From Lepidurus packardi (taxonomy: Eukaryota; Arthropoda; Branchiopoda; Notostraca; Triopsidae), in the NCBI GenBank assembly GCA_023053545.1, contig JAKZAN010000001.1:10932565-10996564 (forward strand): a stretch of 64,000 nt of DNA, given 5' to 3'. A program made the position numbers and the translations under genes. This document shows, piece after piece, positions 2,172-64,000 of this stretch (positions within the stretch are counted from its first letter, which is position 1; each line of letters begins with the position of its first letter). The notes below the pieces were generated by a model. The model saw nothing but the letters and a program-made list of their open reading frames with translations, did not search any database and had not been told where the DNA came from.

Positions 2172-2480
2172 TTAACTCCTCCCAAACTCAAGTGCACGTA
2201 TTTCAACAATGAGTTTGAAAATGAACGTCCTTTTTCTCTGTCTGTGCTGAGGCTTCGGTTCCAATGCCCTAATGTAAAAATTTTCACTGTTGGGTGAGCT
2301 ATGTCTGAGTTGAGGTAAACGCAAATGTTGGCCAAATTTTCTAACTCCTCCCACACTCGAGTACATGCATTTCACAATGAAATCGAAAATGGGAGTCCTT
2401 TTTCTTTCCATGCTTAGGCTTTGGTACCAGTGCTCTAATGTAACAATTTTCACTGTTGCGTGAGCTATTTCTGAGATGCT
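2172..2480. repeat. Tandem duplication, unit about 165 bp, two copies
   Basis: Unit 1 (about 2174-2340) and unit 2 (about 2341-2480) share AACTCCTCCCA, GTCCTTTTTCT, CTAATGTAA and TTTTCACTGTTG blocks in the same order. Each unit carries the CAACAGTGAA core on the minus strand (2283-2292 and 2449-2458), plus a related CAACAATGA or CACAATGA string on the plus strand. Confidence 0.8.
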
Positions 2481-5400
2481 AACGAAGTTCTAGCAGGGGG
2501 TGAAGGCGGTTGAGGAAGACTGCATTGTATTCAAAATAGAAAGCCAGTCGCATGGGCTTGACTAGTAGAAGTGAAGTTTGAAGCTCCCCCGAAAAGCAAA
2601 AAGCTTCTGTTATGCTGAACCACCGGCGAACTAAGCTCATGGTTAGTCATAAGTCTTTTTACAAACATGCATACATAATGAAGCCTCTGCTCAAGAAAAC
2701 TTTTTAAGACTGGTGCTGTTTCTATTACCACCGTTGTCGATGTTGGCTTGCATAACTAATATCAGAGCATTCCTTACAAAAAATCCATTTTTGCGTTTCG
2801 AAAATTGGGGAAAAAAGGTAAAGCAACTTCATGAGGTATTCATTACAAGGATTTCTTTTGAACCCTCTCAGTTTGGCTTCCTTAAGTTATGCATAAAATG
2901 TCCAACGAATTCCAATTTCCGTCTAGTAGTTTTTCCCCGTTTCACAGATTTTCAGTATTAAAAAGAGGCTAACAACCTTTACTCTTGGCAAAATTTGAAT
3001 AGACTTGATTTAGTTTAGAAGATTTGAATAAATTTAGCTTTAGGAAAACCACTGACGTGCTGATCAATGCAGAGTTATAAGCGAGGCACGTGCTGGAAGC
3101 CATACAACAATGTATACACTTGGAAGTTGGCAAAATATTTGCAAGTTTCAAACTCCAATACCTCTCGTGCCGTGCTATGGGCCGCCTGTGTCGTTGTGCC
3201 GATTTTCGGTGAATAAATCATCAACTCGGTAAACAAGCTTCTATTTTACCAAAGTCACGTGCTGCTTGCCCATATTCTTCTTCCTAAATTAAACTTATAA
3301 ATTACTTCCTTTCCCTTTTCTAATTTTTTCTTCGTTTTGCAACCGAGAGCAAAATGTAAGCAAATTAAAAAAGATTTTTTTGTATTCTATTTTATGTTTG
3401 TTTGACTTTGATTTTTTGGCTTGATTTGGGAAACGCCAACGTCTCGGTTTTGGTACGGTTTGGGTACAAACCAAAACAGTAATACAGTATATCTGGGGGG
3501 GGGGGGGGGGGTAATGGGCTGGGCTGCGATGGAGCAGAAACTCGTGCCCCGAGTCTAATAACTTTGGTAGCTGAGAGAAAAGATCCACTTAAGAGGAACG
3601 TCTTTTAATGAGTAAGAAAGGGAAATGGGAGCTTTTTGGGGGGTAGGTTCATTCGTTCCTTATAAGCTCCATGAAACGTTGACTGTGTATGAGTTTTATA
3701 TAGGGGGACCTTTGAATTATTGTGGACTAATGTTCTCTCTGCACGTCCACAGTTGGCTTAATAGTTGCCATCCCCTTTTAAGATTGCCCAGCTTTTTCTT
3801 TGAACGCCGACAATCTTAGAAGGGGGGAGGGGCCATATAGCTCTAAAGTAAGACGGGCTATGTGTGTGTATATAATATATCAGATACATCTTATGTAGCA
3901 ATATGACTTGTGTGTGTTGCGTGGCGGCATTACCAGAAACAGAAACAAGGCGAGAAAACCCTATATTGGTTCTCAGACTTGGGGGGTAAGACTGTTTATG
4001 TGGTCGCCTAAGGGATCTAATGAAGGGGAAAGCGGTCAGAAACTAAAACCCTATACACCCATGATAGACGCACTCATTTGAAGCCTACAGAAGTCTTTTA
4101 AATGATCTTTTCGTTTCATTCGAACAGACCCGGATCTGTAAAAGCAGGGCGAGTCGAGATAAAAGTAAAGGTTTTCGTAACAAATGTCCACCTCGCGTCA
4201 TCTCCCAAGTATCGTTTTGGCTAACTGTGGCAGCTCGTCTTGACTTATGAAATGGCAATGGCGATGAGGGGAAAAGGCCATATAATAAGAGCACACACAG
4301 GGCAAGAAGGCTAAAGCACGGCTAAAAGGGCAAACAGCAGCCCTGGAAAGATAAACGGGCCCCCATCTTTGGCCCCCGCACCCACAATAACGTATAACAG
4401 GCGAGGGAAGCTGTGTGAAAAGCTTCCTTAGCATCTCTTAGGCTTTCGTATTCGCTTTTTGATAATACATATATCTTACATTATTATTAGTATTATTAAT
4501 AATATTATTATTTATAAATATTATAATATTTTTTTATTGCATACCAGTTTAGGCCGAAGCCTGTTACTGATAATATAATATTAATATTGTTATATTATTA
4601 TCATATATTCTTATATTTTGCAGTACGTCTTATAAGACAGACAAGTCACCGTATGATGGTAGGCATATAAGTGTGCATGTAAGTGCGGTTTTACGCTCCT
4701 ACTTGCTATCTTGTTCATACTGAGAACGTGTGTACACACTAAAACTAACCTTAAAAAAAGGAATTTGATCTTGTATAGAGGAGATCGTTTATTATTAGCC
4801 TGTAAACATGCGACTGCTTCTAAGCCTTATTTTAAGGAAATATGTTCTTTTTTAAACTGTTAAAGGAGGGGAACTAGCGGATCCTTTTGAAAAGAAAAGA
4901 AAAACGTGAAAAGGATGGAGAATCACGGAATCGTGACTATTGGTGGAGCCGGTGAAACGACCTTTAACCTGGGGAGCACCACACTTACGTCACAGCGGGG
5001 GTCGCCCGGCATTGGCATGGCTCCCAACAAACAGCTTTGACTTCCTTTATGGCAAGGAAGCTTTTACAAGGGAATATGGACGCATTGCGAAATTGGCGAC
5101 ATATTAGTTCGGTGTTAGCCGAGCCAAAAGGAGAGTATGAAAGTATAAAAACCCACCCCCCAGGGAAGCTTGAGATCAATATGAACTATTATTGCTGTTG
5201 GGGTTGGGGGATATCAGCGCCTAATCGACGGGTACTATACCTTATATACCACCTTGATGCCGGCACCAAAACCACATGAAACCCACAATGAAACTTACAA
5301 TGTCCTTCTTACAGAATAACAAAACTACATAACTGCATTCCGGATTCATTACAGAATTCAGTTTTATTCAGCATTAAAGCTTGGTAGGAAAGTACGGCGC

Positions 5401-6741: not shown

Positions 6742-6778
<37 letters not shown>

Positions 6779-6881: not shown

Positions 6882-7340
6882 GGACAACCCAATTCAGGAC
6901 TGGCTGGGAAAAACGGTAGCTAGCGAAAACGAAAAGCGAGGCGATAAAGATGAATCCATAGAGGAATCATTGAGGTTCTTGATCAAAATCAAGACTGTAT
7001 TTCACTGTGTGATTGTACAGCAATGAAATTTTGCGAGCTTAGGAACAAACCGACAGAGCGAGGACGGGGAAAGAATCTGCCTGCTTGTGTCTGCAGGCTA
7101 GCTTACTAGACGGGAAGATTCACTAGTGGGTAACAGTGAAATTTGGCGTTGCGGGCTAGGTAGGACTTGAATTCGTTCTTGTCAACAAAGAAATCATGGG
7201 CATTTGACAAATATTCCAATTAATCAATTTATTTCACTATTGCCCAATAATGAGTGTTCCACATTGCGGATTACGTAGGACTTAAATTTACTAAAAAAAA
7301 AAAAAAATCTTTTCATGTCTACTACGGAACATCGCCAGCC
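6882..7340 (+). repeat. Dispersed repeat A, copy 1 (longest)
   Basis: Aligns by eye with 18325-18640 and 19637-19925. Shared landmarks in order: CTGGCTGGG(A/G)AAAACGGT, GATTGTACAGCAATGAAATT, GCGAGCTTAGGAAC, CTTAC(T/C)(A/G)GACGGGAA, CTAGGTAGGACTTGAATTC and a terminal TCT..TAC.GAACA. No ORF. It probably represents a non-autonomous mobile element of unknown class. Confidence 0.8.
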
Positions 7341-11555: not shown

Positions 11556-11800
11556 GAGCCGCGTTCGTTTCAAAGGAAGTTAACTTGAAAGTCTACCAAG
11601 TTCACTTGGTAGGAAAGCATAGGCAACGCGTTGACTTGGAAAGGTCTGGACTCGAGCTCAACAATGAAAGCTTTTGTCCTCAAAGATAGCTTTCTGTGCG
11701 TTACTGTATAGGACTAGAAGCGTTTTAAATTCGTTTGAAAACGGGGCGAATGCGCGTTCGTTTTGACGGAAGTTAACTTGAAATTCGACTTCAAGAAATA
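11556..11800. repeat. Degenerate tandem duplication with internal hairpin
   Basis: GCGTTCGTTT(C/T)(A/G)A..GGAAGTTAACTTGAAA occurs near 11562-11591 and again near 11754-11783. Between them lie a perfect 8-bp hairpin, CTACCAAG/CTTGGTAG (11593-11600 and 11605-11612), and CAACAATGAA at 11659-11668. Confidence 0.65.
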
Positions 11801-13334: not shown

Positions 13335-13612
13335 TTGCGTTCGGTTTTGCCTGTTTTGTAATTGGTTTAAGCCCAATCCCGTGCAGAAGCTCTATACATG
13401 CTCTTTACAGGCATGGAACTTCCAAGCGTTCGTTGTTTTGACAATGAAATTTTCAGTGTGTGTGAGTCCCAACAGTGAAAACTAAACCGTTCGCTTTTGG
13501 CTGTTTCGTGATTGGTTTAAGCCAAACCCCTTGCAGAAGCTCTATGCGTTCTCTGTACAGACTTGGAACTTGCAAGCATGGTTTTGACAATGAAATTTCC
13601 GAGTCCCAACAA
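13335..13612 (+). repeat. Dispersed repeat B, two tandem units
   Basis: Unit 1 (about 13335-13480) and unit 2 (about 13484-13612) share ATTGGTTTAAGCC(C/A)AA, GCAGAAGCTCTAT, TACAG.C.TGGAACTT and GACAATGAAATTT. CAACAGTGAA is at 13470-13479. An inverted copy lies at about 15740-15905. Confidence 0.85.
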
Positions 13613-18324: not shown

Positions 18325-18640
18325 GCTCTTAAGCCAAATCAAGATTATATTTCGTTGTGCGATTGTACAGCAATGAAATTTGGCGAGCTTAGGAACGGGC
18401 CGAGGACGGCGAACGAATCTGCCTGCTTGGGTCGGCAGGCCCGCTTACCAGACGGGAACATTCATTCTTGGGCAACAGTGAATTTTCCCGTTGCCGTTCT
18501 CTCGGCTAGGTAGGACTTGAATTCATTCTTGTCAACAATAAAATCACGGGCATTTAACAAATATTCCAATTCATTAGTTTATTCTTCACACAAAACATCC
18601 TTTCCATATCTAGTACCGAACATGTAATAACAAGGAAGAA
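18325..18640 (+). repeat. Dispersed repeat A, copy 2
   Basis: Highly similar to copy 1 from GATTGTACAGCAATGAAATT to the terminal CTAGTACCGAACATG. The 5' portion seen in copies 1 and 3 is absent or too diverged to recognise. Contains CAACAGTGAA at 18473-18482. Confidence 0.8.
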
Positions 18641-19636: not shown

Positions 19637-19925
19637 GGACACCCAAATTCGGTGCTGGCTGGGGAAAACGGTTGGAAATCACTCACGATTTATATAAAAA
19701 AAAAGACTATTTTTCGTTGTGTGAAGGTACTACAACAAAGAAATTTTGCGAACTTGTCAAACACCGACTAGCGGTTATCGAGGACGGAGGCCGAATGTGC
19801 GGTTAGCGAGGTTGGCTTACCGGACGGGCACATTTCACTGTTGCCCAAGAATGAATTATGTAGGGCTTAAATTTATACACGAAAAATAGACTTTCCGTAT
19901 CTGGTACGGAACAGGAGGTATGTAC
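19637..19925 (+). repeat. Dispersed repeat A, copy 3 (diverged)
   Basis: Matches copy 1 at both ends (GGACACCCAAATTCGG.GCTGGCTGGGG; terminal CTGGTACGGAACAG), with central deletions. Carries TTCACTGTTG at 19834-19843. A frame of 80 codons at 19564-19806 overlaps it and is judged fortuitous. Confidence 0.75.
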
Positions 19926-20888
19926 AGTATTGAGTAAGTGTTGGCATATCTTTGTCGCTGGATCAGCCAGGATGTGAGGAAGAGAGTAGGCAAACGGTTA
20001 GGTTAGCGGTGTCGGCGGATTTCATTAACGGACGAGTTCAAAAAGTCAACAAATTGGAAAGAGACTTCCCAACACGGTCTTCCAATAACATTACGCCTGG
20101 GTCCCTAAACTTCCTTCTTCCCTCTGTATCTCTCTGGCTCACTCGTTCGCTTCAAGAGCAAGCCACAAAAGATGTTCTTCAATTTCTGTTTGATTGTCTG
20201 GTCCGTTTGGCCTCCCGAAAACCTATCGAAGGTTTCTCATAGAGCAGTTTTAGGAAAACCCTTTTTTTAGCCCCTGGTTGTATAGTCATGTGCTATGGTT
20301 CGAGCAGAACCGCAGGACCAAACAAAAAAGAAAAATCGGAGCAGAAGCTGGAAAACGTGTTTGTCTAGGTTGTAACACCGTATATGGGAGAATCGTGTTG
20401 GGGGAGAGACTCGGATCCCGGTGGTGATTTGGCGGCTATCCGGAATAGTACTATAAGACATGATTTCTTTATGATCTATTGTAAAAGAAGGGCTATGTTG
20501 GATATGCACAGTGCTATACACAGTATAGACAGTTGTATATACTGTACACAGTTCCGTAGCGTCCCGTCATTTTCATTGTTGCTGTCGTTGGACGCGGCGG
20601 CCACCCGAATACCAAAGTCCCTTATTCCTATCAACCAGCAGACGGTATAAAATACTCTAAGAGCGTGGCTTGTAAGAAAAGAATCGATGCTCTAGAGAAA
20701 AGTCTGTAAATGTTGTGCCTTCTTTAAAGCGAGAAAGAAAGCACGCAATTGCATAGAAACGACCTATGGCGTTGAACGAAGGCTTTTTGATAAGGGGGAG
20801 GCGCATTTAGGGTTGTCAACTCCCCGCGGAAGTCGTTTTAGAGCAGGATTGTGCGCATGGGGTTTGCATTTTCAATGAGCTTTTAAAT

Positions 20889-24660: not shown

Positions 24661-24958
24661 GTGGAGTTGAGTACATCAACAATGAAAATCTTCAGAGGTC
24701 CTTTAAGCTCTTTCAAAAGGAGGTCCCTAAACTGCACTAGTCAGGCGTGCGAACGTTTTCTGTGTTGTGCGGATGGACGGGGTGGGAGTAAGGAGGTGAG
24801 GTGGATATTAATGGGAGACAGCAACAATGAAAGTCTTGATGGGTCTTTAAGGGCTTTAAAAAGGAGGTCCCTAAACTGCACTAGTGCGAACGTTCTCTGG
24901 TAGTGCGGATACGGGGAGGGGGGAGAGGGTGGGAGTGAGGTGGACATTAATAGGAGCG
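24661..24958 (+). repeat. Tandem duplication, unit about 145 bp, two copies
   Basis: Units at about 24674-24815 and 24820-24955 share CAACAATGAAA (24677 and 24822), AGGAGGTCCCTAAACTGCAC, GCGAACGTT and GTGAGGTGGA.ATTAAT in order. The first unit carries extra sequence between blocks. Confidence 0.85.
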
Positions 24959-27849: not shown

Positions 27850-27887
<38 letters not shown>

Positions 27888-27896: not shown

Positions 27897-28968
27897 TTTA
27901 GCCCTTTTTCTTGCTATTTCTGTTCCTTCTCTACAGTACCTCTACTGTACTTGTACTTTAGATTGGTATAGCGTACTATACTCGGTGTTCTAGACGAAAA
28001 GCGCACAATCAGAGCTCAGAACTGTCTGTTCAGTTCCATTGAATGCATAAAAGCGCTTGTGTAGGGCCGATCCGGGCTATTTTGGCTCGAGTGGACTTGC
28101 ACCAATTCTTTTCTCCCGTTTAGCCAACGGCCACACGGTTGTCGCTGGGCGCGCTCGGTTGGTTTCCACCAGTGTCAGCTCAGACTCTCGCAACACCGTC
28201 GAGTTTCGTTGCGTGGAGCAGTTTCAACGCTTGTTTTGTTTTACTTTTTAAGAAACAAGCGGTTGCTAAATGGGGAGCTGGTATAAACTACACCACTTTA
28301 AACAGCCAGTGGACTTGGGTGTACCCACTTATAGTGCTACAAGTGAATAAACTGGCGTAGGAGAGTCGCCAAAAAGGTATTCTAAAACAGTTTCCCACTT
28401 TTCGACACAGCGAAGAAGCGTGCTGTGCTGTCACACGGTGGAAAGCTTGTCACTCGGGGATTTTCAGTGTTGTGCAAAATTTACGTACTCGGGGATCCGG
28501 AATTTTCATTGTTGCATCGAGTGTCTTATCACTCCTCCAAGAAATATTCCGAGGCAGTTGATGATTGTGCGTCACTTTTTAGCTCTGCGGTTCGATTTTG
28601 TTGAGAAAAAGTTGGGCTTTTTAAATTTATTTATATTTTGACCGGCGTATTGCGTGCTAAACTTGCACAAACGCAGACTTCGGAGAAAGTATTCCGAAAA
28701 GGTAGCAACAATGAAAACCTATTCTGAAAAGCAAGCAATAGTGAATCTTTCAACAGTGAATCTTGCGCTTAAATCTTCTTATCCTTACCTTAGAGAAGTT
28801 ATTCATTACAAGTGACATAACGCGCATAGAATCAGATAGGCGTGGCTAACGCAAAAAAGCAAGAAAAAGAGGGCGGGTTAGTTTAGGCGTGAAGAGGGGA
28901 AAGGAGGCGGAGCGTACATGCATATATGTGTGTGTATATTGTACATGATTTTCTGTTGCCTTGGCGCT

Positions 28969-29263: not shown

Positions 29264-29362
29264 GAAGAGTCCCCCCCCCCCCCCCTTTGCACATTTCAAA
29301 CTTAGCAAACAGAAGAGTCCCCTCTCTGTTCATTGTTGAAACTCGCAAAGTGAAGAGTCCCC
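29264..29362 (+). repeat. Three spaced copies of GAAGAGTCCCC upstream of nubbin
   Basis: The 11-mer occurs at 29264-29274, 29312-29322 and 29352-29362. Each copy is preceded by a similar AAACT(T)NGCAAA-like segment, giving a degenerate tandem unit of about 40-48 bp. The first copy runs into a poly(C) tract. The array sits 300-400 bp before the nubbin ATG, in the probable promoter or 5' UTR. Confidence 0.7.
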
Positions 29363-32600: not shown

Positions 32601-35600
32601 TGGAAATAAAATGCCACTTGTAGCCTGGTTTACCTCACTTTGTGTCGTGCAAGTTGTTGGGTTGTGTTTTTGGCTGAAAAGAGATAGTTTCCAAATGCTT
32701 GTACAGTATCTTGTATGTGTATACATCCCTTTGGTGGCATTTCCCTTCCCCGATTTTCAATCCATGTTTGATCTTCTTTGGTGGCTGACGCGTACAAGTT
32801 TGCAGCTTAAGTTCCCATAACTTTGGCTAGAAAAGATCGGTTCACTTTGCTTTTCATCCTGAATCTCATCCCTGTGCCGTTTCGGTTCTCTCTTGACTGT
32901 ATAAACTGTGTAATGTGACGACTTGGTCTGCTTAATTTGAACTGAACGTTATCACCAGTGTCTGTTAGTGTGGAACGCCAGGGAGCTCCATCTCTTTCAT
33001 GGTTGGAGTGAGCAAGGAGAAGCCTTTCATTCTTGCAAGCCACCGCAAAGCGCGGCATTCGAACAAATTTTGAGTTAACGAACACTGCAATCGGATGCTT
33101 AATGTGTAGAGAGCGTTATCACCAGTTTGGTTAGCGCTATTTTTCATTGTTGGAGCAAGGAGAAACATTTCATTTTTGCAAGCGAACGCAAAGGGTGGCA
33201 AGCGAACAAATTTGAGTTAGCGAACAAAATGGGACGTTTGGTGGGAAAATAGAATAGAAGCATGCGTGAAACATGAAGTGATCATAAGCGAATGAACTGT
33301 ATTGTATATGGCACAGGATTTGCTATGGCGGTTACAACTTTGGACTTGTTTTCTACTGCACCGTTTGCATATTCTGCATATTCATAGCCACGAAACTCTT
33401 GAGTTTGAAGCCCTTGTTTCTTTGAAGCATGCAACCTGAGCCGAAATAGTTTTTCAGGGGGGAGGGATAGCGTTAGGAAAGTCCTGGATATAACGGAAAA
33501 GAAACAAGTCAAGTCGAGTTTTTCTTCTTTTACCGAGAGGGATGAGAGCTCACGAGCTATACTCCTGGCTTCCCGCAATTAACGGAGGGCACATTCAAAA
33601 GACACGTCTTGTTTTAATTTTGGGGCCACAGCGCATAACAATTGAGTGACGGGAGCCGAGTTTTCAAGTTTTGTGTTATAACTCTCATGGATTACTCTTT
33701 CAAGCGTCTGGCACGGTTAGCAGGTAAACAAATCCATTCCCGGAGCTTTTGAAAGTTTTCATTCTTGTGCGTCAATGGCGAACGTTTTTCGAGAAGCCGT
33801 TGGGTACGACCAAACTAAACCTTTTAGAAGGGTTGCTAAAACGTTCGATTCTCCCTTTCTACCTTGTTTCTGTGGTTGGGCGCCGTCACTGTATGGTGAT
33901 CCGAACCGACTACACCAGTTTCGTCCAGGACGCTCAATTTTTTTCACTGTTGAAGCTTTTCATTCTTGCAAGCCAACCAACCAGCGTTCAAGATTTTCCT
34001 TTGCTGGAGCAACAATAGCACGAGTTTTGTTAGATCCATTCAGCCAATGCTGCGCTAACAAGTTTTGGAGCGCGTTGAATATCTTATTTTTTATTTTTAA
34101 AAAACTCAAAAGAAAAAGGGGGAGGGTGTTACGGCACGCGCCTTTGAAATCGCTGACATTGTCATGTAGAAACTTTTTATTCCTTTTTTTAAGTCATGCG
34201 CTGGCTGGCCGTGCTAAATTGTCACGCCACGCTATGGAGATTGCCAGCTGCCTTCAGTAAAGATTTTTTTTATCCCTTCGCCCTGGGTAACGGGTTATTC
34301 AAAAGGGGTGTCATAGACACGTGGAAGGGGTTATTCCCGTTTTCAATCACAGCCTCTTTACATGCCCAGATCACCCTCCGTATAAACTACCCCTTTCATA
34401 GAGCATCAGGCCAGTATAAAAAAAATACCTTTAATCTGTCGTGTTCAACATTGTAACCGATAAATGATTATATCACATCTACACGTATAGTACCAGTAGC
34501 AGGAGCGCGGCATTAAGTCAACCCCTTTTGCGTGGTTAAGGGTAACGTGCTCCCTCGGATCAGGCTGAAAAGGGGTTAAGTCACATGCACATAACAATCA
34601 CAGCGCGGCATCCCCACACGTCACCCCTTTCTCTCGTTTTTGGGCCTTGACCCCAGCCACTTTGGCATTTTGTATACTCAATAACCCTGTCGCATCTTGT
34701 CTCACCCCTTTTAGGAGGGGTTTTGTATTCAACCCCTACTGTTTTGGGTGTTACAGTATGTATGTACAGTATGCAAAGGGATGAATAATCGTAAAAAAAG
34801 AAAGAAAAAAAACAGATTGACTGGCAAATTCGCTGTGAAGGGGAAGGAAACCGAAAGGGGTTGCGTCAACAGAGCTTGCATAGTGACCTCATTATGATGT
34901 GATTACATGGTTAAGCTGAGAAGGCAAAAAAAGGATGCTCTAGTCAAGAGGGTTGGGAAAAAATGAATAGAAGAGAAAAAAATTGTTTGGGGAGTCTTTT
35001 ACTTGCTCATTTGGTGGTAGCGGACCTTCTCCTCATTTCCATAATTTGAAGGGGTAGATATTTTGGCGCGCTAATGAAGCAACGGGTAAATGAAGTAAAT
35101 AATGAGTCGAACTTTGAAACGTACCGCTTTGTGTATACCCCCTGTTGCATTGCGTGGCTGGTGGTTTTGGAAAAAAACACGAAAACTTGTGGATTGTGTG
35201 CAAGTGTACTTTGGGGAAAGAAGTAATGGGGTTCATTAGCTGTTAGTTTCCTAGACTAGCAATGACGCTATCAGCATTTTTTATTATTTTTTTTTATTAC
35301 GAAAAGTCGCACTTTTTTGGTCTTCGCCCTACATTGCTTTGGCAAGAGGTAAAAAGTCAACAAGAAACCCAAATTCGGAGAACTTAACGAAGTTAGAACG
35401 TTTCTATGGCCACGCGCTTGTCCTTAAGACCGGACATGGGCCTCAAACACGATCAACTAGCCTGATGCTGTGGGTTAGTTAAGTTGAAACAAGAAAACTA
35501 AGGGGGAGAAAAGACTTTTCTTTTCTCTTTTTTTTTAGAGGCCTTTGGTCGACAATTGAATTGGTGTTCCAGGTATTGGATTCTGGGCTCTATGTTCTCC

Positions 35601-38600
35601 TAATCCAACGCACTTGTCTGTGGGGTAGGCAAGATTAAGAAAATATAAAGGCTTTTCACGCAAGTTGTAAGTTAGGGAAGGTGGACTGGACTGTTGGGGA
35701 ATGAATGAATGTGCGTGTGTGTTAGTAGACTGATAAGCACAAGTCATAGTTTCAGGACAAGGCAGGGGGTACAAGGATGGGCGAGAAGAGAATGTACGCG
35801 TCGTCTCTGTTGTAATGGACGTAGATTGACCAGTTTCCCCTTTTTGCTTATAAGATTGAATAGGTCAATTCGTTTTGGTTGTGTTGGCCGAAGCGAGATA
35901 ACATCCAGCCTCGCACCAACGCGTCCAGGTCGATGTAGGGGAATATGATAAAGACCTCTCTCTGGTCAAGCTCAGCCTTCTTGCGTTTACCCCACTCTTT
36001 CTTTCTCCATTAACCTTATTATCTTATGGGCGGCGAGAACAAACTATGCAAGGCAGCATTTATCTTTGATAGGGCTTACGCAACGTAATATGTATCTTGC
36101 GAGGTGAAGGAGCTAGCTTCATTCTCCAGAAGAGTGAAGCTACCAGCGTTTTCCCTAAAGGTCAGTCAAGGGACCCCTAGCCTTACTTGGGCCTGCTTGC
36201 GAATGGAGCCTAAAGTATTGCAACAATGAATAGTTAACATTACTTAACATGGGACCCCAGCCTATTCGCGTTCCCAAACCGCGACTCGCCGTGTTCACTC
36301 CAGTTTGGTGTTACTTTCCTGGTTAAGCCTTCTTTCGGAACCGAATAGTAACTTGTATTTACGGTTACGTTGAACGATCAGCTGAGCCGAATGTGTAATG
36401 CAAACGGAGCTTACAAAATTGCAACAATGAATAGTTACCATGGGACTCGTAGCGTTTCTTCGGCCTGCATGCGGGTGGAGCCCACAATATTGCAACAGTG
36501 AATAGTTAGCATCCCTAGCATATTTACGTTCCTAAACCGCGACTCGTCGTGTTACTCCGGTTTGATGTTACTTCGCTCGGTTAAGCGTTTTTTTGGGACC
36601 GCCGAGTAGACTGCGTTCAGTTGGGTCCGAACGAATTTTGTGTTGAACGATCAGCCGAGCCGAAAGTTTGATAGGAAATGTGAATATTGGCATGTTTGCA
36701 CAGATGGGCAGGGAGAAATTTCCATCTCGTGTGCATGGTGAGGCGAAAAAGATAGACTTTTATGACATTTGCTTTGGTTTTGGATGCATTCTTAGCCTGG
36801 AGCGAAGGCAAAGCACAGCAACCAGTGCTTAATTTAGGATTCCGTGGAGTTTCAAGAGTAAACGGATGAGGGAGCAGCATAGGGAATAAAGCTCTATGGG
36901 ATGGGTGCATAACTTTGTTTGAAGTTTTTCTTTTTTATCTGAAAGTGGGGCTTGGAAGGAAAGCAAGATATCTAGTCGACTGACCACGATGCTCATCTTT
37001 TTATGCCCCAAACCCTTCGAAAAGCAACTCTTAAAAACGATAAGAGCCAGACGATTTGTTCTGATCGCCCCTTTCTTCTTTTCCCCTCTTTTTTCGCTCT
37101 CCGTGCTCCTAAAGTTGGGGGCATTTCAATTATATTGGTCAGGAAAGCTTTCAGGCATGCATTAAGTTTGCATAATTCGTTTTGAGGTACCATGCGGCAA
37201 TTTCCCAGAAGAATTTTTGGACAAGAAATCGTTTAGGGGAACATGGAAGGGACGAGTCTGTCTAAATTAATAAAGGAATATGGAATATAGAGAACTCTTT
37301 CTGGCAATTAGGCTTAACCGATCTAGTAAGGTTAAATCCAACAAATTTAGCACCTGTGCATACAGGTCAATAATAAGCGTTGGAATCGCCCTGTCGCATT
37401 TACGGTCTTCTTCCCTGTCATGTTTCTGTGGCTTTGTATAAGCGAGGAAGAGAGACAGAGAGAGACACTTGTGTATATACTTGACTAAATATTAATTAAG
37501 CCTTCGTGACCGACCCCATGCATCAGGTTCTTGTGGAGACGTAAAATTCAACTTGAACGGTGGCGAGAGAGAACAGAGAGATAAAAGCGCTGTCATAAAA
37601 AGACTGTATAGATGTGGCGAGCTATAAACTGCATGGCTTGCGGAGAAGCAAAGGCGACGAGATTAGTGCGTTGTTATTTATGTCTGGTATGCAATTATGC
37701 TCAATGAGTTCGGCGTCGTCCTTGATGTTGCATTTCCTCCTTCTATTGTCTCCATCCTCTTTGATTCAGATATCACACAATGGCCCCAATCCTGTGCCTT
37801 TTCATTTTTCCAAGACTGGCCCTTACTTCACTTTGCCCTATCTAGCCGCTTAATTCAGTCCTTTTTCTTCTTTTTTTCTTTTATTTTTCTTGGCTCTCAA
37901 TTTAATTAACATAAAACTGGGTACAGTAACTTGGTACAATAAGAAAGAAGTTCACTCCAAAGAACTTCAATAAGAAAGAAGGGAAAGCATATATTTGAGA
38001 AAAAAAAAACATATTTATACGTTTAAGACAGATATGCCAAGTGTTGAATGACCAGCAGTCCTTTGGGGAATTACAGTTATGGCTATTTTCTTTATCTCGT
38101 TGTGAGGCGAAAAGCTACTGGGTAACATACGTACAGTGGAGTCACAAACATACACATGCACTCAGCGTGAGGAAAGTTCACGTGCTTGTGGGCCATAAAA
38201 TGAGGAAGCCAGGATAACCTGGGCTTGCGGCTTGTTTGGCTGTATTGTATTCGGTGGCAACCTTACGATTCTAACTCAATTGTGGAAACCTGGGATCTTA
38301 TAGTGCAATCCCAATCCAAGGTTTCTGCTTTTTTTTTTGCTTTTTTGTTCTTCCCCTATGGTTCAGAACAGGCCACAAAGACAGCTTTGGCTGATGGGGA
38401 ATAAACGGTGAAACGAGAAGAAGGAAAGAAATGTAGCCTTATTGGTGCTTGTAAGTGCGTGGTAGTTTGTGAAGTTGCCAGGTTCGTCATGCAATCTCAC
38501 GAGACATAGTTCTCAAAGCTTTCTTTCCACATAGATATGCTACCGAAGTATCGTATAAAGATCGTCTTGAAATATTTGGTATCGCTATGTGCTAGAGAAA

Positions 38601-41600
38601 CTCTAGTAAATGTTTGAACATATCCCCAGCTTTCGTATGTATTAATTAAAGCTTTTTTTGTTTTTTCTTTCTCTTTTTGATCCTACAGCTGACCCTGTGG
38701 TACGAGAGATGGACAGAGAAGAGCGATGCTCCCCGTCTTCAGCCAAAGGTACTGGTGTATGGCTTTTTTTGTCAATCCGGCGAGGCACCTCGTTTCCCAG
38801 AAACAAAAAGAAAAAGTCTTAATGGCATGGGTTTTATGCAAGTATGGCATGTTAACTGGTTTACTTTGTGGGTTATCCCAAATGCGCGTTATTGGTAGAC
38901 ATTAAGTCGGCTTCCTTCACTCTAGAGCTCTTGTGTATGCTCGTTGACCAGTAATGACTAACCCATGGCAACAATGAATTTTCCTTTTTTCGTTTTTTAT
39001 TTTCTTATTCAGCTATCCGGCTACGCCATGTACCAGGCAACAATGAATATTGCAAAAATGAATTTGTCTTTTTTCGGGCTTTATTTTCTTATGCAGCTCT
39101 CGGTGCTGTGCAAAAGTCAAGGGAGGAATCTATCTTGTAAAAGGGGAAAAAAATTCGGTAATATGGATACGCGGTAGGGAATGAGTTGCATAAATGATGC
39201 AGCAATGCCGACATGCTAACCCGCCACTTTTGAAACTTTATAGGCCCATGTTTTCGCATCATGTCTTACTCATGAACCCCGACAAAGAACCCAGTTAGGT
39301 ATGCAAGACTTTCAAAATAGAAAATTCATGGGATGACTTGATTCTCTTTGTCCTCGGCCCCAACAATCGTTCGTTGCGGTGTGTAGTTGCTTCGCGTCGA
39401 GATTGTTTCTCGGTAAAGTCGCGTTTCAGATAAATTTTTGAGTAAGGGTTCAGGTTTTATAGATACGGAAAACACGTCACGGGCCTTCCAACAATAGCCG
39501 AGATTTAATAACGCGACGAAGAAGAAGAGCCAAGAAGCTGGTACCTTTAACATACATGTACAGAAAAGAATGGGAGAAGCAGTCACAAGGAAAGCGACTA
39601 CGGCATGAGGGGGAGATTCGGGGTGGGAGGGGATGCTCTTGATTATCTTTTGAAGTGGCCTAATCAGTGCAAGGGCGTGTGCCGAGAACCCGGGCCGCGG
39701 GGCCAGGCACCGAGCCATTATTGATCTCACTAGGACGTCTGGACGCTGGAGACGCCGCTGAGGCGGACGAGAGCCGGCGAGAGCGAACGTTTTACACATA
39801 GATACATGTCCAGTTCTCCTTTCCATGTACAGGAGAGGATAGGGAAGAAGGAAAGTATATAGAACGCCGCCGAAAAGTAATTGCAAAGGCCTATTGAGTA
39901 ACAATCATATAAAAAGCTCGGCCTTTTATTTTACAAATAGTTTTTTTTTTTTTTTTTGGAACAAGGGGGAAGTCTTTTTTAGCTTTACGGTCATACCCCT
40001 CTTTGCATTCTAAATTGCCTTTCTGGCTTATTTACCATGTTTTTTATGTTTTTTAGTGGTTTAGTTTAGTTTTGTGTGTTTTTTAAGGGAAAGAGGGGGT
40101 AAAGGTGGAAGATTTTTTTTTTTTTTTTTTTTGGCTTTTGCATTACGCGCTTGGCTGATTTTGGAATTAGGAAATGTCTTGGGTAAGGTGATGTATGTTA
40201 GGGTTTTTCGTTTACTTTTGTCTGTAGACATTGCGGGGTGGGTGGGTGGGTCGTATGCCTGTTAATAGGGTCGAATTGTTGAGGAGGAAAAAGGGGGGTT
40301 GAATTGTACCCCAACTGGGGATTTATGGTCTTGCATGCTTGGCAAGTCTAATAGGAAATGTAGTTGTATGCGGGAGGCCCCGAGAAAAAGAAAGAAAGGT
40401 TGTATTTGGGCAGTAGTGGTCACTCGGAGATTTCCACGAGGTTTGAGCGAGAGGTAAAGGGAGGGAAAGAGAGCGAACGAGAGAAAGAGAGAGGGGGTGG
40501 CATCGTCAATCAATATTTCATCAATAAAAGACGGGGAGGCCAGAGAAAAGAAGAGGGAGGATGGTGACCGTGACACATGGAGGTGGACATTGGGTTGCTA
40601 ACGTCATCACTAATCAGTGTGTGTGTTGGAGACGAAGCTGGAGACCGTTTGCTTGCTTTTTGTATAGGACTCGGCCTATTGCATCTATATACTGTATAAA
40701 AGAGCGGGAAAAAGAAAATCGAAGGCTAGGGAATGTGTATTCCAGGGCGAGGTATTGCGAAAGGGGTTTTTCCATACTTTTTTTTCTCTCAAGAATGAGA
40801 CTTGTGTGAGCGAATAAGGGAAGAGAATTAAAACTTTGGGGTATCAAGTTCTTGATTTAAAAAAAAATTGAGGATAAGATTTGTGGAAAAAACGAAGTAA
40901 ATGGACATTTGGGCAACTAAGTTTGTTCTTTCATTTGGTTTTGTCAGATTCCAGTGCGTTATTTGCGTTGCCCAATGGAGGGAGTTTGCGATTACAGGGA
41001 TTACAGAGCCACGCCCACCAAGTGAAGATGGAGCGCGAGAGAATGAAGGAAGAAAGCGATATTTGGGCCGCCCACCACAAAGCGTCTTCACCCGACTGGG
41101 AACGCATGCAAGCGTACGCCAAGAGTCTGGGTTATTCCGTGTTGGCCAGCCGGGCCTCGGCTGGTGTAGAAAATGGCGGCGGAGGCGGTCGTCACGGCGA
41201 AGAAACACGCCCTGCATTGAGTCCGCCTCCTATTATTACCAGTTCCAGTCGTGCTGCATCCACTGTCCGCTCTGTTCCTCAACCTAGCCCTAGTCCAGCG
41301 TTGGAAGATGAAAGTCTTTTGGATTCCCCGATGGGAGAAACCCAGTCTGACGTGGAGGATTCCATGGACTCTGACGGAGAAGCTTTAAACTTGGTAAGAA
41401 AGCAAACAAAAAACGCTAGTAATAGTCCAAAACAGAAAAATTTTTGGTGTGTAACCATAATTTCTGTGTTTTTTCTCATGGCAGGCCCGGGAATCTCAAC
41501 GTTCGCACAATGGAAACGGCCACGGGAACGAAACCAGTCATTTGAACGGTGCTTTGGCGGCTTTGAGTGCACCTGCTGCAGCCGCCGTCAACCTGCAGGC

Positions 41601-47486: not shown

Positions 47487-48694
47487 ATGGGATGCATTTG
47501 CTCTAAAGAAAAACTGGATATCCAAGGGAAAAGATTTTACGTCAAAAGTCACTTAGGAGTAGGGTAAGCGTAACATTCTTTTTACCTGTATAGACTTTAT
47601 CAGTATTATTTTGTATCTATTTCATAGAGGTTTTAGCACTGTGGACATAGTAGAAGATGACTCAGGCCGCTTGTTTGCCTTAAAAAAGATTACCTGTCAC
47701 AGTCCGGAAGATGAAAGAAATGCGCAGACTGAAATTTCCTATCACAAGGCACTGTGCCATCCCAATGTCATCGAGTGTCTGGGTTCGTCCATCAAAGGCA
47801 AGGCTGACATGACCAACAATGAAACAAGTACTGTCTGTCTCCTACTCCCATATTATAAGGTATGTTGCTGGACTAAACAGTAAATTATAACCTATTTAAA
47901 CATTATCATAGCAAGGAACTCTGCAAATATTGTTAGACAGCAGGGCCAAGATGCGGAATTTCTTTACTGAAGAACAAATTCTCCTTTATTTCCAACAAAT
48001 TTGCGAGGGCGTGAAAGTAATCCACGATATCGGTGCAGCACACAGAGATCTCAAGACGGCCAATATATTAATAACTGGCAACAAGGTCGTTGTCATGGAC
48101 TTAGGTTAGTCACTAATTGGCTTTTCAGTGAATCTAACTTGACCTTCGCGCACAGGATCTATGGCGTTGGCTAAAGTAGAAGTAAAAAACTATTCAGACG
48201 CTCAAAAACTACAAGATGTAGCAGCTGAGAGAAGCTCGATGACCTACAGGGCACCCGAATTATTCCATGTTGAGCACCCTTCCATAATTGATGAACGAAC
48301 CGATATCTGGGTAACAGTTTTCTTTTTCTTTCCACCAATTAATTTTGCATAATTCCACCAGTCATTGGGTTGTATCCTCTACGCCCTCTGCTTCTTCAGA
48401 TCGCCTTACGATGAAGTGTATGAACGCGGAGATAGCGTAGCATTGGCTGTTGTTAGCGGCAATACCCACATTCCATCGTTTTCACCTTTTAGTGAGGTGA
48501 GGTTTCAATTTGATTTGACCATATATTCTGCCTTAACTATACGTATTTTCGTCTAGGCCATGCACGAGCTCATTCGTAAACTACTGACCGTGGATCCTGC
48601 AAATAGGCCATACATTGCGGAAGTCTTAGCCGATAGCGAAGCCTTGAAAACAACCAAGCAGTTATCACGAAGTCCTATTCATGTAAATACTTGA
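47487..48694 (+). CDS. STK16: STK16/MPSK1-type myristoylated serine/threonine kinase, six exons
   Basis: Member of the NAK kinase family. In other animals STK16 is a Golgi- and membrane-associated kinase linked to secretory traffic. Exons: 47487-47563, 47628-47859, 47912-48104, 48156-48310, 48362-48496, 48557-48694. The frame is 930 nt (309 aa), close to the usual length of about 305 aa. The N-terminus MGCICSK offers Gly2 for myristoylation and Cys3/Cys5 for palmitoylation. Visible kinase motifs are the glycine loop LGVGGFSTV (23-31), ATP lysine K45 in ALKK, a likely helix-C Glu61, catalytic HRDLKTAN (147-154), metal-binding DLG (166-168, the STK16-style replacement of DFG), and YRAPELF. The segments DERTDIWSLGCILYA and GDSVALAV are also characteristic of STK16. 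All introns are short (52-64 bp). The gene converges on the CUB/LDLa gene, with 50 bp between stop codons. A variant poly(A) hexamer, AATACA, lies at 48730-48735. Confidence 0.95.
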
Positions 48695-48744: not shown

Positions 48745-51700
48745 TTACAAACAATAACTGCGGCTTTTGCTAATTATGGTCTCGGGTTGATCCGTCTGCA
48801 AGTACTCCAACGCCGAATCGCTACACACCCGATGGTTACGTCGCTCATCCACACTGAGACTCGACAAACGATCCAGCCGCTTTTGCAATTCTTCGGTACG
48901 AATTGGTTCGGGATTGCTTATTACATGGATCTCTAACCTGGGTTCGTCATGCAGACTCAGACCTGAGTTGACGTCTGTCTGCGAGAAAAAGATATCCAAG
49001 GACCGATTCTTTAGGACCCCAATACCGGGCATCGAGAGCCCTCTTACATTCCTTTCGGGGTTCTTGAGAGGACGTGTTTGGAATTCCACCTCTATCTGAA
49101 CTGTGTCAACGGGGTTCTCCTCTTGGACCTTTTTGGCCCATGTCGAACAACCGCATGCACCCGGACAGTCACAAGTGAACGCTTCTGGTTCGCTTACCCT
49201 CTCTTGCCGGGTAAAAGCAGCTCTACGTTCTTCCGTGCTCTGCCGTACGTGTCCAAAAGACAAGGCGCCTACTCCATTTGGAGACAACAACTCGGTCTCG
49301 GGTACGAGTTCCACGTCTGAAGCTTCTTCGGTGCCTTCCATCTCCACTTCCAAGGTTGCACGACTGATTTGAGGCGTCGGTGGATACGATGCGTCGTAAG
49401 AAGGCGGCGGGGAATCCGGGAGACGGCGGTTTGAGGAGACACTGCTACATCGACTCACGGGTTGACTGTTACTGCAACGACTGGAAGGACGATCAACGCG
49501 TCCTCGCCCGGGACGGGGGCCTCGACCTCGACCTCTACGAGGACGGGGCGTGCCAGAAGTGGAGGGTACATTCAGTAAAGGGGTCCCCAGGAGAGGCGTT
49601 TCCGAGATGTGATGAAGTTCTGGTTCGGTGGATTCTTCCACGACTGCAAGACTCGGATCTGGACTAGGAGGAATTTGAAGCTGAGTCTGTTGAAATCGGC
49701 TTCCCATTAATTGGATATTAGTAGCGTTGGCTAGGACGACCTTGAGGATCTCAGAATAGTCCGGAGGAGATTCGTAAGTAGGGGGAGGCTCTTCCGGTTG
49801 CACTGGGCTATCCAATCCAGCTGTAAAGTAGAAAAATTAGCATGATTTAAAAAGATTCTACACTACCGTACCAATTTGTCCCCGCAAGAAGTCGAGGCGA
49901 GCTTGACGTTCTCGCAAAAGGCGAGTATGGGAACTCATTCGGTATAGTAAAGCCACAAGGCTGCCAATGAAGATGAGTACACCTAATGTTGCCACCATGA
50001 GGATTACGGTTGTTACGCCCATGCCAGCCAAGTCCACCGACTTGGGGAAGTAGTAATTCGGCGTGTGTGCATACCACCAGTTAGGGTCTTCGGGTGTACC
50101 AGAAAATCCTAAAAGAACAATCAATATGAGTGCCTTTCTCCTTTATGCTAACAGTCGACTTAATAGAAGCTCATTAGCTGATGGTTTACCAAGGTTACAT
50201 GCGGGTGTTTCATCACTGCCATCCCCACAGTGATCAAAACCATCACAGCGCAACTCGGCACGAATGCAACGACGGTTTTGGCACATGAAATCCGCAAACG
50301 AAAAGCACTCTATTCCGAACATAAGACGTTAATGATTGTCGAAGGAAAAATACTTTTCAATGTAACCTTTGTTGCTGTAGCTTGTGTATATAATAGCTAA
50401 CTTGAAGGAGTCGTCAAGCATACCACGTAGACGTACATAGAATCCGACGTCGTAGCTAGACATGAGTTCTTTGGTTTCCCGAAAATCTCCCATTGAAATG
50501 GTATCAAGCAAGGGCGCAATCGAAGTAAAGCCTTGTCTAATTTCCAGCTCAGTTCCACTGTTATTATCTAAGAGAAACAAAAGGAGAATGTGTAAGTTAA
50601 AACGCTATAATTTAGCAAAAAATCCACTTTCCCCCGAAATTCCAGCCCAAAAACTCACTGGAGGTGAATTGCACAATGCGTAGCGACAAAATCGGCTTGG
50701 ACTGGAAGTTTAGTTGGGGTTTGACCAACCAAACGCAATCGTAAGGCAGTGAACTAGCGGGCGGGGCCATTTTCATCATGGTAATAGCTCCTCCAACGTT
50801 ATCTACCCATCCCCCGCAATCTAAACACACAAAAAAAGAATATTTTTGTAATAAAAACTTTCAAACGTCAGTTAAATCGTGACTTCGAAAGCATACCCAG
50901 TATAGGCTTTTGCTTCACCCCGTCGGCAGATCCTAAAAATAATCCAATTTGTAATTCCAAAAGTTATTACAAAACAAAAGGTTCTTAATTTAGAATTTCC
51001 AGCTTACCATTTACGAACGAATACAGTACCCTGTACCCTGGACCTCGGCCGCCATTTGCGTAGAATTTTAAAGTTATCGAAGACGTTGTCGAAACAATGA
51101 GTTGGGGGCGAAACAAAGATCCACTTAGTACTTCAATACGCATACCTTTGGAGTCAAACACCTAAAGTAAAGTAAAGTTCAACTATGAACACTAACGAAG
51201 GGCGAGATTTTAAGGCGTAATTTACCTCTATAAACGACCACGGTGTTAATTGAAAGTCCTCGAATATAAGCTGTACGCAGCCATTCGCATCTTCGTTGAG
51301 TAAAGTCACTTCATTGCTGAAATCCCGCGGATAGTTCGAAGGAAAATGGGGAGAAGTTAAAACCCCCGTACTATTCTGCGCCACTGATCCACTAACGACT
51401 TTTTTGTTTTCTAAAATACCATTTTCATTGTTGGAAGTTTTACGAGGGGGCTTTTAACTTACTGATGGCTGTGTAATGAACAGAGAAGGCGTTCTCGTAG
51501 CCAACAGAGAAAATAAACTCGACCAATACGCTGCGAGATAGCGACTCGTACGTCATGTTTGCATTCGAGTCGTTGCAGAAGATGGTAAATACCTCGTATA
51601 AACTTTCCTTCACCAGGAAATGGTCGGCTCTAACATACAACAGATTACAATAAATCACAAGATAAACTGAACAAATACTAACTTTTCAGAGGAGCAAGGT

Positions 51701-55900: not shown

Positions 55901-58900
55901 TAGAACGGCTTAAACGCGGCGAACTGGCGGGAAAAAAAAGTAACAAATTATGATGCCTTTCATTAAAAAAAAAAAAAAAAAAAAATAAAAAACGGTACGT
56001 ACTTCTTGACCAGTCCTGGTTAGCCCGAACCCAAGTTTGGGGCTAACACTAAAAGCAGAGACTATCCAACTTGTCGGAATATCCGGAATAGGTATGCTAA
56101 AGATGTAATGACCATGCGGACCAATGTTGATGTCTTTCCAAAGCCAGGAATTTTCGTACATTCTTAAAAGGCGGTTGATACGATGCAATCGGTAGTCCAT
56201 AATCTCTTTACGGGCTGCTGTAGACGGACCTATTCACGCCACAGAAAGAAGAGCAATTAACTCATCCAACAATTGAACGTTTTTATATAATATTTCTTAC
56301 ATCCAGCCTCATCTGATTTATCTGTGCAATCAAAGACGCCATCGCAACGCCTTTCGACTCGGTAACAGCCTAAATTCATGCAAGTGGCAAATCCTAAGCT
56401 TATATTGCAGTTGTCTTGTCGCCTGATGACATTAGCGTCAGTGAAAACCACCAAATTCACAAACCTTTAAAGAAAAAATATTAATTCAATACTTTCAAAG
56501 GCTATTTTCTTTAGAATCTTACTCAAAGGTCTGATTAGCATCCATGCCATAAGTTGAAGAGGGGAAATGTACTATCTCATCCGGATTGCCCTCTCTGGTA
56601 GTCCAGAAATGTGTCAAAGTACCGTTGGTATTTTCATCAAACTCTGCCATCTTCCGCAGCACTTCCGTGTAGGATAAGCTATTGCCGGCTTGCATGGAAT
56701 AGAAGCTCTTATCTACTGCTGAAATGCCGACGTAGGATCCTGGCTCGCCCAGAATGACCACCTCTACTGTATCCCCTGTTTTATCCTTCATGGGATTCAA
56801 ACTCAACGTGAACTAAAAGAATTTTTTTTTTAGTCAAACTACTGATAATAATCATAATTATAATGAAATCAGAGTAAAAGGATCTGATATCCAAGCCAAA
56901 TGAGCTCGTACATTCGAGATGTAAAACTCACATTATTCCTCGATATGCCATTCACGGGGAAGGTCAAACTGTCGGCGACCACTTCGCCGTATCTACCGAC
57001 ATGGTACACCACGATCGTGGCCACTGGAGCCATGTCTGCACTCAACGTGATAGCCAAGGTATGCACAGTCTGGGACATGAGGTCCTGACCGGCCAGCAAG
57101 ATAATGCCTTTAGCCAGTACAACATAACTGAACGTTTCCACGTAATAATTCGCTCGAATATGCAGAATTATATATTCTCCCACCTATAACAAAAGCAAAC
57201 TAAGTCAATCCCCTTTCTCTGGCATGCAAAAAAAAAAAAATAATAAATAAATAAAAAATACTTTAGGATGTCGAGTCGAGGTTTGAACACGAATGTGCTT
57301 ATCCCCAGGCGAATACTGCGTCAATACCGTCAAGTCACCAGTGGCTGTTTCACCCACTTCTCCATATACTCCTCGCTTTTCTGTATAAATGGCATTCAAG
57401 CGTAGCTCTGTCACATCATTGACTGAGTCTCTGTTTTTATCAGCTGCTATGCCGCTCCCTGAAGAAGCTAGACATGGTAGGCACATTTTTTTTATTAATC
57501 TCACTTCTTTTTCAACCTTTTGTGAAAAATAATGAAAAAATAATTGTAAATAATAAAAAAATTTAAAGATAGCCAGCAATAGGCGGAAGCCTACATTGGC
57601 ATTAATATATTTTAAATAATAATAATAATAAATAATTTTAAAAAATAATAATTTTTCTTCTTACTATGTAACATATAACAAAATAATAAAAAGATAATAA
57701 AGAAGTAATGCAAAATAATAATAAAAATAAGATAAAAAATAATAACAAAAATAACTGTTTACCAAACTCGGCACGTAAATCGATGCTGAATTCATAAACA
57801 CCCGGCTGACCCTCCACGGCTGTAGCATTCTTGAGATTAATATTCCTGGACCCTCCGCTTCGCCTTATGGCCGTGAGCCGGATTTCCACCGAGGAGTTCT
57901 GTAGGCGATCCAAAGGGAGGGGCGAACCATCAAAGAATGACACGGCCAACTAAGAAAAACGATACTTTGAGGGCGCCCGAACCAGCAAACTCCACCAAAA
58001 TTATTGACTTACGTAGCAGGTGAAAGGCATGGAAGGTTTGAATACTTGAGGCGTCCCACCCAAAAAGCTAAGTTTGAGAGACGTGTTGAAAATGCGAGCA
58101 GTGGAAAAGCCTTCGTAATATTCATTTAAGAATCGATCTCCCACAATGGCCGTAATCTGGATTTCCATGCCATCCAATTTGCCGACCCCAGCAATCCGCT
58201 CCAGATCAGCCATGGGATAATGGAAGTCGTATATTCCCCGGAACTAAAATAATAATAATTTAATATAAGAAGAAGAAGAAGAACAACTCATAGCAATTAT
58301 CGTAATAAAACCTATTTAATTGGGTGTGGCCACTTACATATTGAAGAACCTCGGATCCTCCTCGAGTCGCGGGTGAAAACCATCCACCGTATTTCTCTGT
58401 AAAGGTCAAGTTTCGTTCCGTGACGGGTTCGCGCAATCTGGTGCGCGGATTGGGTCGAACAGGGCGGATGGTCGCTTTCAACGTCAAGTTGCCCACAACC
58501 GGCGCTCCGCTAGTGTAATTCGCCATTACAGCACCGTGTATAAACTCATCCTTGTCGAAGAAGAAGGCCGGCATGGAAACATTGACCTCAAACCGGTTTT
58601 GATAGTACTCTTCAACGTGGAAAGACTCCTCTTCTGTCTGCCCTTGTGCTAACACGCGAATCGTCCACTTGCCGAACGTCGGCTGGTCCGACAAGGCGTA
58701 CTCCAAGCTGACGGCTCCAAAGTTGGACTGTGCAAAAAATAAAAATAAATAAGAAAAAAAGCACACGTTAAAAATGAATCAAAATTCAATGCATTTTGCA
58801 ATAAAGGTTTAGCGCATGTAAACATACCTGTCTTGAGAGCCATCGGCGAACTACAAAGCCTCTTGGGTCCAGCATGTACACATCGATGGCATCATCGAAG

Positions 58901-62600: not shown

Positions 62601-64000
62601 AACGAAGCTGAGTTTATTTAGAGAAAGAAGGGGGTGAATTAAAAAAGGTTCAAAAGGGGATGTCAATGATTCAATTTAAAAAAGTGTCGTGTGTTAGGTC
62701 GGGCTAAACCTTTGAAAAAAATTTATGTCGATCAGTGACCCTAGAAGCATTTTTTTTGGCTAGTCCAATAAAGCCATGTAGAAGGGGGGAAGCCTATATA
62801 TAATACTCTCACGAACGGCCGAAACCGTTCAAAGGGCTTCGTCGATCAGTTTAGGCGAAGTAGTTCAAGGCACGTTATCGGGATAGGATTACACACACAA
62901 GTATATACCTTTAACGTGCGATTCATTTCATTGTACCTAAGAAAAAGACACAGCTTGCATGCCATGCATGAAATTAATTGTTACCTTATGAGCCTGCAAC
63001 AAAATTCGAACGTTTTGGAATGCTTCCGACCGCTAAGCTATGACAGGCAAATCAAAGCCAAGTGCTCGTAACAAGAGCCGAACGCACAGCACAATACAGT
63101 GTCAATTAAGTCGCCCCTTCCACGTTCCGTCGTTAAAAACATAAACGTCGCAACACGAAGCTTCCCAACTTAACGGCAAGAATGCGTTGCTGCACACAGG
63201 GAAGTAATGAGGCAGACTCACGAAGTCAAATAGTTAGGAATCCTGGTACAGATGTGCTCCGGATTTTCAGTGTGTGCATGTTGGGTTCACACATGCATTC
63301 AGGACGAACAAAAAGAACAAAAATAGAGATTTGTTTACTCACGCAGGTGGCCTGCTTTGGTAATGGATGGCGTAGTGCTACGTACAAATCCCAATGAGTC
63401 TTTTGCACGGAATCAGAATCTGTTTGTAAGGGCAAAGACGGGGAAAACTTAAAAGAACACGGCTCTTACAGCTCAACAATGAATTCTTCCCCTACACAAC
63501 ACAAGCACCCGTCAACTTCCGTACCCAGAGTATAACTGGCTACACACTCCAGGGAAGCGTCGAAAGAAATAAGGGGACGCCCGTCCCAGGCTAAAGCGCG
63601 TCTGGTGCTTGTCCTTAGGCTTGGGCTTTCGCGTGGGCTCTACGCGAAGTGGATATGTTGAATTTGGCACTCGCAGCGCACACTAAAAGTGAAGGCTACA
63701 GTAACCTGAACTGTGAACCTGACCCGGCCATGACTAACGACCATTTTTCTTTTCAACTCATTCATATTTCTTCACTCTTTTCGCCCTTGGCAGTTGCCAA
63801 AGCTTACATAAACGTCTGCCACACTATCATCTTTTCAACCCTTCCGTCCAAAAGAAACCTTAATTGCTAAAAAGAAACTGAGATAAAGCCATTGAGCCTC
63901 CCAAAGAAGAAGAAAAAATCTGTTCCCACCATTCATTCAGTGTTTTCAGAATAGATCGAATCGGTTGAAAAAGATTAAGATAGTTGCTAGTAAGTATGTA
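59660..64000. other. Upstream region of the Mcr-like gene; no further gene recognised
   Basis: Likely contains the noncoding first exon and promoter of the Mcr-like gene. A short degenerate tandem of ACTAATAAAG(A/T)T-like units lies at about 62417-62485. CTTAGCTTAGCTTAGCC lies near 59963-59979, a C-run near 61867-61876 and CAACAATGAA at 63474-63483. Open frames up to 94 codons lack domain features. Confidence 0.45.

Follow-up and report, generated by a model that had tools for sequence, protein, structure and literature searches.

The stretch of the Lepidurus packardi genome analysed here (contig JAKZAN010000001.1, positions 10,932,565 to 10,996,564; 64,000 bases) is referred to as the window, and the subject of this report is a ten-base motif that recurs in it, CAACARTGAA (TTCAYTGTTG on the minus strand). 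The window held 24 exact copies, 14 on the plus and 10 on the minus strand, compared with a mean of 0.50 and a largest value of 3 in 100 dinucleotide shuffles. When all words seen at least six times were ranked against a second-order Markov model, with low-complexity words excluded, the two forms of the motif were the most enriched 10-mers of the window (CAACAATGAA, 15 versus 0.22; CAACAGTGAA, 9 versus 0.14). With up to one mismatch, 61 copies were counted versus 7 for the reversed word, which served as the control for most counts. An earlier sequence-only reading of the window had described the motif as hugely over-represented, and this is borne out. All 22 positions and strands it gave were right, and two further copies had been missed. 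The exact copies, 21 of which lie in the first 40 kb, are as follows.

1688..1697, minus strand: CAACAGTGAA, missed by the sequence-only reading
2283..2292, minus strand: CAACAGTGAA, within the tandem duplication 2165-2478
2449..2458, minus strand: CAACAGTGAA, second copy within 2165-2478
11659..11668, plus strand: CAACAATGAA, single
13470..13479, plus strand: CAACAGTGAA, between two copies of a 150-bp repeat (13338-13598)
18473..18482, plus strand: CAACAGTGAA, head-to-head with a one-mismatch copy, TTCATTCTTG, at 18461
19834..19843, minus strand: CAACAGTGAA, adjoining a one-mismatch copy, CAAGAATGAA, at 19846
20572..20581, minus strand: CAACAATGAA, missed by the sequence-only reading
24677..24686, plus strand: CAACAATGAA, first copy of the tandem duplication 24673-24956
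24822..24831, plus strand: CAACAATGAA, second copy of the same duplication
28505..28514, minus strand: CAACAATGAA, in the stretch 28420-28860
28706..28715, plus strand: CAACAATGAA, in the same stretch
28751..28760, plus strand: CAACAGTGAA, in the same stretch, with a one-mismatch copy at 28736
29329..29338, minus strand: CAACAATGAA
33143..33152, minus strand: CAACAATGAA, in the tandem duplication 32995-33226, its counterpart at 32996 having one mismatch
33943..33952, minus strand: CAACAGTGAA, with a one-mismatch copy 16 bp off at 33959
36221..36230, plus strand: CAACAATGAA, in the local repeat 36167-36601
36422..36431, plus strand: CAACAATGAA, in the same local repeat
36493..36502, plus strand: CAACAGTGAA, in the same local repeat
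38969..38978, plus strand: CAACAATGAA
39038..39047, plus strand: CAACAATGAA, with a one-mismatch copy, CAAAAATGAA, at 39053
47814..47823, plus strand: CAACAATGAA, inside a kinase-like open frame
51424..51433, minus strand: CAACAATGAA
63474..63483, plus strand: CAACAATGAA

The repeat of about 260 bp that holds the copy at 18473 recurs at 6973-7233. The copy at 47814, which had been singled out as coding, does lie in an open frame with a protein kinase match (Pkinase, E 2.8e-5, 24.1 bits, under the Pfam cut-off of 31.7) and is perhaps a chance coding match. Pfam also recognized in the window a POU-homeobox exon at 42541-43074 on the plus strand (Pou, 1.2e-27) and, on the minus strand, a gene for a thioester protein of the alpha-2-macroglobulin-like type, with TED and MG3 domains at 53875-54498 and 58260-58778.

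The genome-wide count that had been proposed was made on 108.56 Mb in 344 contigs, among them six large contigs (C1-C6) of 10.7-14.0 Mb each; the window lies on a contig of 14.05 Mb. It gave 4,728 exact copies, 2,301 and 2,427 by strand, versus 538 for the reversed word, a roughly ninefold difference by which a near-random frequency is ruled out. Exact and one-mismatch copies together numbered 28,080, versus 15,834 for the control, and the motif is 8.6 times denser in the window than in the genome. A 14-mer, CAACARTGAAAATT, occurred 71 times versus 2 for its control, and all 71 copies were on C1-C6, whose combined length is 77.2 of the 108.6 Mb. Its 61 separate places are clustered, 51 having a neighbour within 500 kb versus 32.6 by chance on these contigs, and they mostly form several regions per chromosome, as judged from the 14-mer map rather than the whole 10-mer set. 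The pairing-centre motifs bound by the HIM-8/ZIM zinc-finger proteins of Caenorhabditis elegans are likewise present as many copies of a short core with regional concentration; a single region per chromosome would be expected of such motifs, and the 14-mer appears to occupy several on most chromosomes. Megabase runs of a single strand, suggested by the genome copy list, were rejected because that list covers the two strands unevenly; a minus-strand copy at C1:1536705, in locus L023 (L numbers denote loci fetched from the genome), is missing from it.

To compare the surroundings of the motif, 100 bp on each side of 133 sites were used with the core masked, after the overlapping loci L002, L007, L008, L029, L034 and L036 had been dropped. 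The sites fell into 52 flank groups, only three of which span more than one locus, and the stretch 28420-28860, which holds three exact copies, matched nothing else in the genome at E values up to 0.001. The motif is therefore not one repeat copied many times, as the sequence-only reading had argued from its differing flanks. Between positions -20 and +34, only +10 (A/T, G=38.5) and +13 (T, G=21.5) passed the threshold outside the core. A smaller set analysed before this one, with 68 sites forming 39 flank groups (L002, L007 and L008 dropped), was examined from -40 to +69; there, +10 lay above the 0.35-bit cut-off and +13 just under it (0.34). The extended motif is CAACARTGAA-W-NN-T, so that an extension of the consensus is upheld at these two positions, in a softer form than had been written. 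The nematode Piwi-interacting RNA upstream (Ruby) motif has a downstream start at a fixed position; here, conservation over the 39 groups was confined to +10 and nearly +13, and a loosely spaced start would escape such a comparison.

Pairs of cores 0-30 bp apart had a distinct geometry. Direct pairs numbered 180 versus 3 in the control, head-to-head pairs 59 versus 0 and tail-to-tail pairs 21 versus 0, the spacers of the latter, all 21 of which were listed, being scattered. Among the head-to-head pairs listed, 36 of 50 were spaced by 0, 1 or 2 bp (6, 23 and 7 pairs), a preference that would fit a dimer-like palindrome. Direct pairs had spacing peaks at 6, 20, 23 and 30 bp (100 of the 180 pairs listed), which derive partly from repeated arrays. 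Head-to-head pairs of L023, L031, L039 and L041 belong to flank groups other than that of a fold-back family found at L035, L038, L042 and L046. Among 38 spaced sites at loci not chosen for head-to-head pairs, four had such a mate (at most three mismatches, 0-2 bp) versus 0.9 expected; since the mate is found at so few of them, single sites are the rule among these 38, and an obligate palindrome was rejected. No target-site duplication of at least 3 bp was found at 19 head-to-head pairs, several of which come from one locus.

Rows of the motif were also found in retroelements. The elements of L016 and L019 (contigs C7 and C10) have leaders that are 71% alike and carry exact cores before a gag-like frame with zinc knuckles. 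Behind this frame, L019 matches aspartyl protease and reverse transcriptase (2.5e-32), both above the Pfam cut-offs; in L016 both matches are below the cut-offs and the reverse transcriptase is cut by the locus end. A protease directly before the reverse transcriptase is the order of Ty3/gypsy- or BEL-like rather than Ty1/copia elements, which suggests an element of one of these two kinds; the motif-bearing elements are read as of the long terminal repeat (LTR) type, probably Ty3/gypsy-like. An integrase match in L019 was rejected as part of the element: it is located on the same strand, ahead of the leader, and hence derives from something else.

When 431 bases around the L016 leader were used to search the genome, 36 matches were obtained, of which six were near-identical (L016 included), seven were at 70-71% and one was a short piece. 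The remaining 22 represent 11 elements in which the match is confined to about the first 45 and the last 35 bases. Eight leaders were read, namely L016, L019 and L052 (the latter two from the 70-71% class) and L047-L051, five of the 11 elements alike at the ends only. Ahead of gag, each of the eight had two to five sites when up to one mismatch was allowed: five each in L019, L047, L048 and L051, four in L016 and L052, three in L050 and two in L049. In L047, L048 and L051 the five sites share one orientation and lie 30-50 bp apart, and in L016 all four come before the gag frame reaches its first ATG (7395). The reversed control occurred once in L016 and in none of the other seven. The middles of the L047-L051 leaders are not alignable with that of L016, so the eight leaders count as two non-alignable types (L016/L019/L052 and L047-L051) rather than as eight events. 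The rows lie ahead of the gag-like frames and presumably behind the LTR. It was also observed that in L016:6990-7420 and L047-L051 the shared ends enclose wholly different middles, as if the leader had been exchanged as a module.

The dissimilar flanks, the near-equal use of the strands, the preferred palindromic spacing and the rows in leaders that cannot be aligned argue for a protein-binding site. We propose, with a probability of about 0.5, that CAACARTGAA is recognized by a sequence-specific DNA-binding protein of the animal. Such sites would occur singly and in local clusters, mainly in noncoding DNA, with a minor class in which the palindrome TTCAYTGTTG-N(0-2)-CAACARTGAA would be occupied by a dimer or by two cooperating molecules. 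Local tandem duplications, with which the motif is associated, would multiply the sites, and LTR-type, probably Ty3/gypsy-like, retroelements bear them in rows ahead of gag. By analogy with the gypsy/Su(Hw) insulator of Drosophila, the protein could be architectural or repressor-like, perhaps a multi-zinc-finger protein or a domesticated transposase, and the retroelements may use the sites or be recognized through them. The sequence-only reading is partly supported overall. Of the three options it had offered, a protein-binding site now appears the best supported, while the lack of target-site duplications at the 19 pairs and of a second match to 28420-28860 speaks against a conserved terminus of a mobile-element superfamily.

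In the gypsy insulator, an LTR element has a row of Su(Hw) sites in its 5' untranslated leader, and isolated sites are found elsewhere in the genome; the core is YRYTGCATAYYY, and there are 12 sites in 340 bp (PMC2374998). The arrangement described here is similar in its row of short sites in an LTR-element leader and its isolated genomic sites. It differs in the core, which by eye does not resemble YRYTGCATAYYY, and in having two to five sites per leader, with at most one mismatch, rather than 12 in 340 bp. The motif is, in addition, found within local tandem repeats and in head-to-head palindromes.

Several results weigh against a binding site. The fold-back family alone yields several of the head-to-head pairs, and 34 of the 38 spaced sites have no head-to-head mate at 0-2 bp. 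Genome-wide one-mismatch copies numbered 23,352 versus 15,296, an excess 1.9 times that of the exact copies; sites decaying by some 16% each would produce this as well. In seven unselected loci (63 kb), there were five copies with at most one mismatch versus 11 for the control, and the density of the motif is considered regional because these loci show no excess. A single genome was used, and most of the 52 fetched loci were selected for carrying the motif.

The divergence of duplicated sites gave a divided answer. It was measured over 130 aligned duplicate pairs from 15 loci, excluding copies more than 95% alike or shorter than 40 bp, and both cores were exact in 75 of these pairs. As one copy had to be exact, half of the flank value is a fair neutral figure. 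Averaged over loci, the core diverged by 5.5% and the flanks by 18.2% (half, 9.1%), which favours conservation of the core; pooled over pairs, the values were 9.2 and 16.8% (half, 8.4%), which does not. The gap is caused by L035, L040 and L041, some copies of which have a lost or shifted core. In the window duplicates alone, the core differed at 2 of 60 bases and the flanks by 21.7% (six pairs). For the earlier suggestion that the core survives as repeats decay, the result is thus mixed, the locus average being in favour of it and the pooled value not.

Neutral decay of old, now unrecognizable repeats, with the core persisting by chance, would account for the one-mismatch excess and for a pooled core divergence of about half the flank value. 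Decay that spares exact cores should, however, keep the flanks alignable, and between loci they mostly are not; we regard this explanation as very improbable. An unlikely alternative of more substance is a transposase-binding motif, with the core as a terminal or subterminal repeat and single copies as relics of non-autonomous elements with varied interiors. In En/Spm-type elements, a DNA transposase recognizes terminal or subterminal repeats, and the subterminal motifs are 10-12 bp long and occur in both orientations, as the motif does here. The head-to-head pairs look like terminal inverted repeats, and the palindrome-centred fold-back family is present at several loci. However, no target duplications of 3 bp or more lie beside the 19 head-to-head pairs examined and no element ends were recognized, few flank groups exceed one locus, 28420-28860 is without a second match, and the core is present in retroelement leaders as well.

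The association with tandem repeats could instead reflect a duplication or recombination hotspot, with nicks, breaks or stalled replication at the core giving rise to short tandem duplications, so that unrelated minisatellites come to share it. Local duplications cover 2.8% of the window and contain 8 of its 24 copies, the core is present in five of the seven tandem arrays of the window and in 20 of 42 over all loci, and dissimilar units of about 30, 33, 35 and 40 bp have it in common. In the minisatellite core of Jeffreys, dissimilar tandem repeats likewise share one short core, which is G-rich; CAACARTGAA is not G-rich, 16 of the 24 window copies are outside local duplications and its palindromic spacing has no counterpart there. 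Offsets of the core from array boundaries, which first seemed one-sided, were spread when 20 arrays were considered, and the core is not reliably at the boundaries. A hotspot would also leave single copies and the palindrome spacing unexplained, and the overall array count includes many loci fetched for the motif; we consider it less likely still than a transposase motif. Lower again we place a developmental transcription factor whose sites are enriched near regulatory genes, the POU homeobox gene in the window being one example. The copies in the first 40 kb lie upstream of its exon, the sites are clustered, and the core contains AACAATG, which we take to be SOX-like. However, the AACAGTG variant, presumably not a SOX-type site, makes up 9 of the 24 window copies, and a copy number in the thousands and the rows in retroelements are harder to reconcile with such a role, one gene neighbourhood having been considered.

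Other repeats and searches are recorded here in their own right. The palindrome-like 8-mer TACTGTAC/GTACAGTA is likewise enriched in the window (11 versus 1.16), and a run of 37 G lies at 27850-27886. The 10-kb ends L010 and L011 (end of C1 and start of C2) consist entirely of a satellite with a 20-bp unit, AGTCCGTAAGGAATTAATTC; by eye, AT-rich arrays also seem to be present at the starts of C3, C4 and C6, and L014 (start of C5) has 5,000 N within its first 10 kb. The word GAGCAAGGGT (27 versus 0.22) and words overlapping it are strongly repeated in the pooled loci L009, L014 and L016-L028, probably as a tandem repeat. Genome searches gave no GATGGGTTTT-type telomere repeat, no TTAGGC x4, no SL1 and no cuticle-collagen N-domain, the control genomes giving no signal for either of the latter two families. 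No Rfam family matched the window at the gathering threshold. In the literature, CAACAATGAA occurs in papers, none of them on this subject among the matches listed, and five longer motif words occur in no paper.

To our knowledge, there are few animals in which insulator and genome-defence proteins have been characterized in depth. Tentatively, and as a bolder proposal than a binding site as such, the motif may mark an undescribed architectural or genome-defence protein with some 4,000 sites, able to bind as a head-to-head pair, whose sites retroelement lineages separately built as rows into dissimilar leaders; this would be an independently evolved second counterpart of gypsy/Su(Hw). A motif with a nearly ninefold genome-wide excess, arrayed in retroelement leaders that do not align in their middles, offers a direct handle for finding such a protein, and through it one could ask whether arrangements like the gypsy insulator have evolved more than once. 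Should the motif prove to generate tandem duplications instead, it would help to explain how minisatellites of dissimilar sequence come to have a core in common.

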